Assembly: GCA_038400315.1 (NCBI GenBank)
Contig: CP151667.1
Span: forward strand, 3,793,174 to 3,857,173
DNA length: 64,000 nucleotides
Source of the DNA: Isosphaeraceae bacterium EP7
GTDB taxonomy: Bacteria > Planctomycetota > Planctomycetia > Isosphaerales > Isosphaeraceae
Direction of reading: 5' to 3'
Made by a program: the position numbers and the translations under genes. Below the pieces are notes generated by a model. That model was not told the origin of the DNA. It did no database searches and saw only the letters and a program-made list of their open reading frames with translations. This document shows, piece by piece, positions 54,919 through 57,936 of this stretch (its first letter is position 1; every line of letters starts with the position of its first letter).

Positions 54919-55161
54919 TCAGGCCGGCCGGTCGTCGGCTCCGGGCCCGATCCCAGTCTTGGCGATCTTGAGCAGATGGGCCATGCCGACGGCAAAGCCG
55001 AGGGCGAAACCGACGAGCACGCCCCAGGGCTTAATGCCCAGCCACCGGTCCAGAGCGACGCCGGCCAGGGCCGGGAGACTGAACTCCAGCCCGATCGTGG
55101 TCACCCGGGAGGCCCAGTCCATGCCGACAGACAAGGACGAGCGGCGGATCGGTTCCGGCAT
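54919..55161 (-). CDS. atpZ: AtpZ/AtpI-family ATP synthase accessory protein
   Basis: About 80 residues (start at ATG 55161 or 55170). Two helices with LEFSLPALAGVALDRWLGIK, then GFALGFAVGMAHLLKIAK, the AtpZ/AtpI pattern. Thought to help c-ring assembly or Mg2+/Ca2+ supply. First gene of the operon. Confidence 0.85.
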   Translation of the reverse strand: MPEPIRRSSLSVGMDWASRVTTIGLEFSLPALAGVALDRWLGIKPWGVLVGFALGFAVGMAHLLKIAKTGIGPGADDRPA

Positions 55162-55293
55162 GTCAATCATCCTTCCCCCTCAGCCCCGGACGGACGCCCC
55201 GCGGCCAGCCTGCGGCCCGAGGGGCCGCGGCGAGTCGGAGGGGTCGGCACTCTGCGTGATCCGCGGGGGGAGAGTCTGCCTCGATGAAAGAGG

Positions 55294-55488: not shown

Positions 55489-55517
55489 TTGACAATTCAT
55501 CCGAAGTTTGATATCTC
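55489..55517 (+). promoter_or_regulatory. Consensus sigma-70 promoter
   Basis: TTGACA (55489-55494), 17 bp, TATCTC (55512-55517), the best -35 in the region. It predicts transcription from about 55524 and, with the terminator below, a short transcript of about 150 nt. Confidence 0.6.
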
Positions 55518-55523
55518 CAAGCA

Positions 55524-55672
55524 GGCTGGTAGTACGGCGTTAGCTTGACGATTCGTGACCCAAGGCCGACATGGGGTCGAGATGATTCCACCCGCTTGTT
55601 GGATCACCACGGTTTGCCCCGACTGAGGCGGCGTCCTCCGCGACATGCGGTGGGGACGGCCGCCTTTTTTGT
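55524..55672 (+). ncRNA. Candidate small RNA or attenuated leader
   Basis: A consensus promoter and a strong intrinsic terminator enclose about 150 nt with no open frame and no ribosome-binding site. It could be an independent small RNA or a 5' leader that attenuates the DUF4912 gene. I do not recognise 6S, SRP, tmRNA or a named riboswitch. Confidence 0.45.
55626..55670 (+). terminator. Rho-independent terminator
   Basis: AGGCGGC (55626-55632) pairs with GCCGCCT (55659-55665) and the stem continues with GTCC/GGAC past a bulged G. Six Ts follow (55665-55670). Confidence 0.75.
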
Positions 55673-55867
55673 TGGCTTCGATCTTCGATCGCCGGGGGTA
55701 TTTGCGTGCGAATCGTCGGCGACCGGCCTCTCCTCAAGGAGTGGTCGGCCGCGCAGTCCGGGAGGCAGGGAGTTTTCCGGATCGGCCCACTCATGGAGGA
55801 ATCCCCGAGTCCTCGGATCGCCCGCGGCTGAACGCGCGAGCCGCCGGCGGTGACGGAGTGGTCCCGC

Positions 55868-56941
55868 ATGACCGTCGAATCTTTGAAGGACAGTAACAAG
55901 AAGGTCCTGGCCCGGATGGCCAAGGACCAGGGGATCGTCGGATGGCACGCGATGCGTAAGGATCAATTGATCCGTGCGCTCAGCCTGCCGCCGTCGGCGT
56001 CGCGCATCGAAGGAAGTAAACCGGCCGATCGCGAGAAGCCGAAGCCCAAGGCGGCTTCGTCCACGCGCCGACCCGCTGCGTCGCAGGCGACCTCGCTGGC
56101 GACCCGGCCCCTGGCGGTCTTCCCCCCCAGGGCGCTGGACCATGCCGCCGTGAAGGATCGGATCGTGGCGATGGTCCGCGACCCGTACTGGCTCCACGTC
56201 CACTGGGAGCTGAGCCGGTCAACCCTGGCTCGGGCGCAGGCCGCCCTGGGGCAGGATTGGCATGGCGCCCGGCCAATCCTGCGCGTCTTCGACGTGACCA
56301 GCGAGGACACCACCAGCGCCAGCGAGCGGCACCTCCGGGACATCGAGATCCACGGCGGGGTCAACAACTGGTACATCGACGTGACGACGCCGCCCCGGTC
56401 CTTCCGGATCGACATCGGCTACCTGTCGAGGCGCGGCAAGTTCTTCGTCCTGGCCCGGTCCAACGTGGTGAGCACCCCCAAGGCGGGCGTGACCGACCAC
56501 CTGGATGAGAACTGGGCGAGCGTCCAGGAGCAGTTCCAGAAGATCTACAACCAGTCGGGCGGGCCCAACGGCTCGGGGGTCTCCAACGACCTTCGCGAGC
56601 TGTTCGAGGAACGCCTGCGACGTCCCATGTACAACCCGTCTGTGCAGGGCCTGGGCACGGCCGGCCTGCTGCTCTCCCGTGGCTTCCACTTTGAACTGGA
56701 TGCCGAGCTGATCGTCTACGGCTCGACGGAGCCGACGGCCCGCGTCACCTTGCAGGGCGAGCACGTCCCTGTGCGTCCCGACGGCACGTTCACCGTCCGT
56801 TTCAGCATGCCCGACGCACGCCAGATTATCCCTGCCGTGGCGACGAGCGTGGACGGGGTCGAGGAGCGGACGATCGTCCTGGCCGTCGAGCGTAACACGA
56901 AGGAACTCGAGCCGATGATCCACGACGGCAATGAGGCCTGA
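55868..56941 (+). CDS. DUF4912 protein with SAP/Rho-N-like N-terminus
   Basis: 357 residues, no signal. About 1-45: a Rho-N/SAP-like helical motif (VLARMAKDQGIVGWHAMRKD) that may bind nucleic acid. A Lys/Pro/Ala linker follows. About 100-350: DUF4912 domain with RIVAMVRDPYWLHVHWELSR, NNWYIDVTTPPRSFRIDIGY and a beta-sandwich end. DUF4912 proteins are widespread in planctomycetes, some near glycan genes; the function is unknown. ATG 55868 is preferred over 55850. Confidence 0.85.
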   Translation: MTVESLKDSNKKVLARMAKDQGIVGWHAMRKDQLIRALSLPPSASRIEGSKPADREKPKPKAASSTRRPAASQATSLATRPLAVFPPRALDHAAVKDRIVAMVRDPYWLHVHWELSRSTLARAQAALGQDWHGARPILRVFDVTSEDTTSASERHLRDIEIHGGVNNWYIDVTTPPRSFRIDIGYLSRRGKFFVLARSNVVSTPKAGVTDHLDENWASVQEQFQKIYNQSGGPNGSGVSNDLRELFEERLRRPMYNPSVQGLGTAGLLLSRGFHFELDAELIVYGSTEPTARVTLQGEHVPVRPDGTFTVRFSMPDARQIIPAVATSVDGVEERTIVLAVERNTKELEPMIHDGNEA

Positions 56942-57034: not shown

Positions 57035-57159
57035 CCGTGCGTTGTCGGTTGTCCCGCCGTCGATTCCCGCCTACACTTCCAGGGTGAATGCGGCGGCCCA
57101 CGCCGGCCCGCCCGATCGAGGCGACCGGCCGGCCTCGCTCGCACTTCGGAGGGATCGCC

Positions 57160-57936
57160 TTGAGCAAAGACATCAGCACGATCCTATCCGCCTGGGAATT
57201 CGACCCCGACGAGATGCCGGTGCGGATCGTGGCCGGCGACGACGGCCGGGATAAGATCCAGACGCGGGTGGATCTGGGGCTGCTCCAGATGGAACTCGAC
57301 GGTCGCCCCGACGGTGGCCGGCCCGAGGGCAAGGAGTCGCTGCTCGACGCCCTGGAGGCACGGGTTGCCGAGGCCACCAGCAGCGGCTCGGTCACCGACT
57401 TCGAGCTTGATGCTCCCGAGTGCGCCGCCTTGATGCGCGAGGGGGTCCAGTACTACCAGCGTTATCTGGCCGCGTTCCACCTGGAGCGGTACGACCTGGT
57501 GGCCCGCGACACGGCGCGCAACCTGAGGCTCTTCGAGTTCGTCAGGCGCCACGCCACCCGGCCTTTCGACAAGCTCCAGTTCGACCAGTATCGGCCTTAC
57601 GTCACGATGATGCACGCGCGAGCCAAGGCCCTGCAGGCGTTGGCCTTGAACGACCACGCCGAGGCGATCGGTGCCGTCGACGCGGGCATCGCGGCCATCC
57701 GCGTGTTCCTGGAAGAGTACGACCAGGCGACCCGCGAGGCCGACTGCATGGAGTTGGGGTTCCTGCTCCGCTGGCGCCGCGAGCTTGAGCGTGACCGCCC
57801 GGTCGGCCCCCTCCAGCGTCTAGAGCAGCAGCTGGCAGTGGCCGTCGAGCTGGAAGACTTCGAAGAGGCCGCCTTGGTCCGCGACCAGCTCAGGCGTCTA
57901 CGAGGCGAAGGCGTGGCCCCCGGCCAGCCTGCCTGA
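57160..57936 (+). CDS. UvrB/UvrC-motif (UVR) protein
   Basis: 258 residues, soluble and mostly helical. The C-terminal about 40 residues contain a UVR motif (LEQQLAVAVELEDFEEAALV, then RDQLRRL), as found in UvrB, UvrC and McsA, where it mediates protein contacts. The N-terminal region (ILSAWEFDPDEMPVRIVAGD) recurs in planctomycete proteins of unknown role. The start is TTG 57160, decided by GGAGGG 7 bp upstream; no ATG fits. Repair or regulatory function not established. Confidence 0.8.
   Translation: MSKDISTILSAWEFDPDEMPVRIVAGDDGRDKIQTRVDLGLLQMELDGRPDGGRPEGKESLLDALEARVAEATSSGSVTDFELDAPECAALMREGVQYYQRYLAAFHLERYDLVARDTARNLRLFEFVRRHATRPFDKLQFDQYRPYVTMMHARAKALQALALNDHAEAIGAVDAGIAAIRVFLEEYDQATREADCMELGFLLRWRRELERDRPVGPLQRLEQQLAVAVELEDFEEAALVRDQLRRLRGEGVAPGQPA

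Follow-up and report, generated by a model that had tools for sequence, protein, structure and literature searches.

A predicted translation-gated attenuator and a candidate CsrA-controlled 5' UTR in front of the DUF4912 gene of Isosphaeraceae

Does the short transcription unit in front of a planctomycete DUF4912 gene make a free-standing small RNA, or is it a leader that attenuates the gene behind it? The question was raised by a 64,000-nt stretch of DNA (the window) from a 7.2-Mb genome whose nearest relatives are Isosphaeraceae (Planctomycetes). The original prediction had described a promoter and an intrinsic terminator enclosing about 150 nt with no coding frame, divergent from the atp operon, and had allowed either reading. 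The segment lies between atpI and the DUF4912 gene (Table 1); atpI is the divergent gene, as described, and the atpI/DUF4912 divergence is common to many loci, some of them outside Isosphaeraceae. A UVR-motif gene (57088-57936 of the window) follows DUF4912 here and in many loci, and the two are probably in one operon. The N-terminus of the DUF4912 protein is a helical part with a weak Rho_N match that falls below the cut-off. The structure model of the protein has a mean pLDDT of 74.7 and a pTM of 0.44, and its predicted beta domains resemble only fibronectin-III folds, which is uninformative on function; a literature search on DUF4912 returned work on a plant only. The reading that we favour, and consider moderately probable from comparative sequence evidence, is a translation-gated attenuator at the front of the DUF4912 mRNA, followed by a predicted CsrA-controlled 5' UTR that hides the Shine-Dalgarno sequence.

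Table 1. Coordinates of the genes and of the predicted regulatory features (positions in the window)
Feature	Position	Strand	Basis or remark
atpI	54919-55170	minus	PF09527; divergent from DUF4912
Extended -10 promoter, TTGACA-17-(TG)A-TATCTC	55489-55517	plus	Sequence; same motif in 37/37 Isosphaeraceae loci
Leader (attenuator) RNA	55524-55670	plus	Promoter-to-terminator span; start at about 55524 predicted
G-rich Shine-Dalgarno of leader ORF	55573-55576	plus	Near-invariant GGG across the 35 rows of alignment A2
Leader ORF	55582-55626	plus	14 codons and UGA; stop abuts terminator hairpin; AUG preceded by GGGG
Intrinsic terminator	55627-55670	plus	GC-rich hairpin 55627-55664 and six Ts 55665-55670; 10 of 13 pairs changed on both sides
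P1 hairpin, ANGGA loop 55767-55771, predicted CsrA site 1	55756-55782	plus	Alignment, covariation, RNAalifold
P2 5' strand CCACUC, complementary to DUF4912 Shine-Dalgarno	55787-55792	plus	Covariation, RNAalifold
Predicted CsrA site 2, CAUGGAGG (CANGGANG)	55792-55799	plus	Invariant motif
P3 hairpin just 5' of Shine-Dalgarno	55817-55851	plus	Place kept, sequence variable
P2 3' strand GAGUGG, part of Shine-Dalgarno GGAGUGG	55856-55861	plus	Alignment, covariation
DUF4912 gene, predicted regulated gene	55868-56941	plus	357 aa; PF16258, E 4.2e-36

A nucleotide search with the 201-nt region across 59 relatives gave no match except itself, so we gathered loci for comparison through the DUF4912 protein. 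Out of 105 upstream regions 83 distinct ones were kept, and the main Isosphaeraceae set comprises 37 distinct loci. The leader alignment A2 holds 35 of these 37 rows; L010, in which the ORF passes right through the hairpin, and L051, which has no clear ORF, were set aside. L028 and L033 were scanned for promoter and terminator and left uncounted. Four genomes of the same family do not have the full layout, namely G005 (L040), G022 (L126), G065 (L043) and G020 (L124), and G010 and G032 gave no DUF4912 match. At the L124 locus, the same-family DUF4912 gene lacks the promoter, the attenuator and the CsrA element; a different long hairpin is found upstream of the gene there.

The promoter is as originally described, with TTGACA (55489-55494) and TATCTC (55512-55517) separated by a 17-nt spacer, and a TG (55509-55510) stands one base before the -10 hexamer. 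All 37 loci carry TTGAC(A/G)-17/18-TGN-TA or a close form 347-499 nt upstream of the DUF4912 ATG, and in 35 of them this promoter outperforms shuffled sequence at p<0.05. Only 0.02 matches to TTGACR-N14/15-TGNTA would be expected in the window, which has one. The 7.2-Mb genome as a whole has 12, no more and no fewer than for a reversed-pattern control, so the argument for the promoter is its conservation and not its rarity. A generic sigma-70 scan omitted this promoter because its -10 box ends in C.

The terminator, with its hairpin and six Ts, likewise stands, and both signals are genuine and conserved. The structural conservation between species on which the original prediction depended was found in the terminator stem, where 89% of cells are paired across the 35 leaders and double-change cells number 85, versus 30.3 in shuffled alignments (0 of 500 shuffles); it was not found before the terminator, where the alignment of leaders predicts no structure for the family. 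In 30 of the 37 loci the homologous hairpin satisfied an automatic rule, so that an intrinsic terminator stands between promoter and gene as in an attenuator; the rule failed or took another hairpin in L010, L015, L024, L051, L099, L104 and L106. In the terminators that were missed the T tract is often degenerate, and some leaders have a poor U tract. The fold of the whole leader RNA has no excess stability over shuffled sequences (z -0.71), and a search of Rfam gave nothing at the gathering score and only chance matches at E>1. A terminated RNA of about 150 nt should exist as a product of the leader. Inspection by eye showed no ANGGA repeats in the leader, and a CsrA sponge was rejected on this ground. 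Terminator-like hairpins are also seen in the 5' region of L027, L028 and L033, and inspection by eye of L028 and L033 revealed no matching leader ORF.

Two parts of the region are absent from the original prediction, a leader ORF and a second structured element at 55756-55870. The latter lies in the 5' UTR of DUF4912, where the 37 main loci carry P1, the CCACUC anti-Shine-Dalgarno strand, CANGGANG and P3 before the gene. RNAalifold, unaided, recovered the core of P1 and the anti-Shine-Dalgarno pairing. For P1 and P2 together, 91.9% of cells are paired, a value that becomes 25-54% when the pairing is slid, and double-change cells number 21 versus 5.1 after shuffling (0 of 500 shuffles). With a covariance model of the element, 32 of 37 same-family genomes each gave a single strong match, which lies at DUF4912 and not at any other gene; G005, G010, G020, G022 and G032 gave none. 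Nor was a copy found in the 22 genomes from other families (best E 0.005). The element is absent from Rfam. A fluoride-riboswitch or preQ1-like pseudoknot was considered and dropped, the loop being ANGGA and CCACUC matching the Shine-Dalgarno sequence. The more distant planctomycete loci L027, L028 and L033 keep GGAGUGG in the last 27 nt before the ATG and do not keep the CCACUC partner.

The invariant letters of the second element match the positions of CsrA/RsmE sites given in the portion of PMC7652899 that deals with them, which lists the SELEX consensus RUACARGGAUGU and 6-nt ANGGAN loops in RsmE sites, with short stems favoured in SELEX. Three GGA are invariant in the 37 rows, one in a hairpin loop and one at the Shine-Dalgarno sequence, as in CsrA targets. 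The P1 loop is not an ANGGAN hexaloop: it reads ANGGA, 5 nt in most rows, and sits on a long stem, and site 2 reads CANGGANG but has no hairpin of its own. CANGGANG is found between -110 and -5 in 37 of 37 loci versus a shuffled mean of 2.2, in 12 of 31 other planctomycete loci versus a shuffled mean of 1.1 (maximum 3), and upstream of atpI in 0 of 37. The gene csrA is present in all 59 relatives searched, with 2-17 copies each, and the genome under study has seven. We take the DUF4912 5' UTR to be a predicted CsrA target, with moderate confidence that applies only jointly with the attenuator reading.

The second element could instead be a riboswitch for an unknown ligand or be bound by a protein other than CsrA, for example DUF4912 itself. 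A helix that hides the Shine-Dalgarno sequence, a single strong copy per genome that is always at DUF4912, and the sub-threshold Rho_N match at the N-terminus of the protein would all suit such a role. We regard it as unlikely, about one chance among several, since the conserved letters are those of the CsrA motif and CANGGANG is kept in other planctomycetes; moreover, L043 and L126 have two CANGGANG-type copies each, those of L126 being AACAUGGAUGUU and CAUGGAUG.

The other missing part, the leader ORF, overturns the statement that the 150 nt contain no coding frame, being conserved in its start, its frame and the place of its stop. Between promoter and terminator, conservation is highest at a GGG and at the ATG that follows within a few bases. 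The ORF ranges from 8 to 24 codons across the 35 leaders, with its AUG behind a G-rich Shine-Dalgarno sequence, and in every one of the 35 the ATG frame stops from -13 to +28 nt of the first base of the hairpin; no stop falls past the hairpin, and about half lie 11-28 nt inside it. The other two frames stop within this interval in 6 and 12 of the 35 leaders, and run past in 16 and 19. By leader shuffling the chance of a stop in the interval, which was set after the data were seen, is 0.27 per leader, and the joint chance is about 1e-20 if all leaders are independent and about 1e-8 with one leader for each of 15 clades grouped by hand. Thus, in the 35 aligned leaders of 37, the end of a leader ORF whose translation is predicted overlaps the terminator, as in an attenuator.

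From the terminator to DUF4912, none of the 37 loci has a sigma-70-like promoter that outperforms shuffled sequence; a promoter of another type may lie after the terminator. Three loci from a sister genus within the family (L040, L043 and L126) have TTGACA-18-TGNTA at a distance of 220-252 nt upstream of the DUF4912 ATG, and in L040 and L043 a search for a terminator between the two gave none. The comparison suggests that DUF4912 is the gene which this promoter serves, with leader ORF and terminator as an added module. A stand-alone regulatory RNA of about 150 nt, acting on other RNAs independently of DUF4912, would account for the strong promoter, the terminator and the lack of a long ORF, and its terminated product is expected under any reading. 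We consider it improbable: the 5' part is poorly conserved and has no conserved structure, the parts that are best conserved are a Shine-Dalgarno sequence, an AUG and a stop position, and DUF4912 would be left without another sigma-70-like promoter. Of the two original readings, the attenuating leader is therefore the one borne out, by the lack of a later promoter in 37 of 37 loci, the frame signature in 35 of 35 leaders and the sister genus, and the small RNA is retained only as a by-product.

A functional micropeptide, encoded by a mini-mRNA with its terminator right behind the stop, would explain the AUG with Shine-Dalgarno sequence and the open frame in all 35 aligned leaders, and the 10-codon ORF is identical in L018 and L021. 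We compared substitutions in 13 hand-picked pairs of close relatives, summing only pairs less than 35% different, and found 20, 31 and 22 changes at codon positions 1, 2 and 3 of the leader ORF, versus 14, 4 and 76 in the first 35 codons of DUF4912 in the same pairs. Such even changes, the variable ORF length, and the stops that lie within the hairpin, where a plain mRNA would have its end damaged by its own ribosomes, make a micropeptide slightly less credible still than the small RNA. The placement of the stops together with the even changes argues that what is conserved is an open frame ending at the terminator, while the peptide is free to vary. A classical amino-acid-sensing leader (trp/his-type) or an arrest-peptide leader would also combine a leader ORF with a terminator upstream of a gene, and is the least probable of the alternatives, as no regulatory codon run is kept between species (by eye), no peptide is conserved, and no conserved alternative, mutually exclusive antiterminator was found.

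In the E. coli experiments covered by the relevant part of PMC4824070, termination was about 90% with a stop codon 28 bp ahead of a terminator and less than 10% once the stop had been moved to 5 bp, the effect of stop position was abolished without translation, and 10-15 nt or more of free RNA was needed for termination. All 35 leader stops lie at or inside the free-RNA limit taken from that part of the paper, and from this we infer that a translated leader would lead to read-through and an untranslated one to termination.

The predicted course of events is as follows. RNA polymerase would start about 7 nt past the extended -10 box, and the first 100 nt or so of the leader would supply a ribosome-binding site followed by a very short ORF, of which the encoded peptide is immaterial and the stop codon is held at the foot or in the 5' half of the intrinsic terminator. 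A ribosome close behind would cover the 5' arm of the hairpin, and the polymerase would proceed into DUF4912; with no ribosome close by, the hairpin would form and an RNA of about 150 nt would be released. The read-through mRNA would then come under a second control in the DUF4912 5' UTR, where the CCACUC/GAGUGG helix would hide the Shine-Dalgarno sequence and CsrA, at the two predicted sites that flank it, would repress or tune translation. The promoter, the covariation of the terminator, the frame-specific placement of the stop, the unconserved peptide, the pairing that would hide the Shine-Dalgarno sequence and the conservation of CANGGANG can be read from the aligned loci; read-through upon translation, the sign of the response, the binding of CsrA and the condition sensed are our deductions from them. 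This condition would most simply be ribosome loading, that is, the growth state.

Transcription and translation have been reported as separated in Gemmata obscuriglobus, to an extent called unclear in the part of PMC6212462 that treats it, and the compartment view of planctomycetes is disputed (PMC6554331). Attenuation of the predicted kind needs ribosomes near RNA polymerase; if it is true, transcription and translation would be coupled in these planctomycetes, and the strict conservation of the leader would be genetic evidence for this coupling. That Isosphaeraceae regulate DUF4912 by a switch that responds to ribosome occupancy and not to the peptide, superimposed on CsrA control and needing ribosomes close behind RNA polymerase on the chromosome, is a tentative conclusion that we rate a little below an even chance. 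The leader would offer a simple genetic assay for coupling in a phylum with reported separation. An unmapped intergenic stretch thereby becomes a testable two-step control region, with a regulatory handle on DUF4912 and a concrete candidate CsrA target in a host with multiplied csrA. Our literature search found no study of a planctomycete CsrA target, and DUF4912, if the prediction is true, would to our knowledge be the first one known.

In ampC and pyrBI of E. coli, a leader ORF runs to the terminator, and a ribosome translating it keeps the intrinsic terminator from acting; the peptide sequence is unimportant in attenuators of this type, and pyrBI has a U-rich pause region. The DUF4912 leader resembles them in its proposed block of an intrinsic terminator by a ribosome and in its content-free peptide, but it belongs to a different phylum and gene and is followed by a second, CsrA-like control, and its ORF is longer than that of ampC and variable. 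It appears to follow the same rule of stop-codon-to-hairpin distance as the system in the relevant part of PMC4824070, which is an engineered reporter, whereas the leader here is natural and conserved. The second element shares with the CsrA/RsmA-repressed glgC and psl, as far as they are described in the portion of PMC7652899 concerned, a GGA in a hairpin loop, a second site nearby and a GGA in the Shine-Dalgarno sequence, and with psl also a helix between Shine-Dalgarno and anti-Shine-Dalgarno sequences. Unlike glgC and psl, it has predicted sites only, a pentaloop on a long stem, an upstream attenuator and a planctomycete host with many csrA copies. Attenuators and CsrA control are each of a known kind, and it is their combination, the host and the free peptide that make the DUF4912 region a variant.
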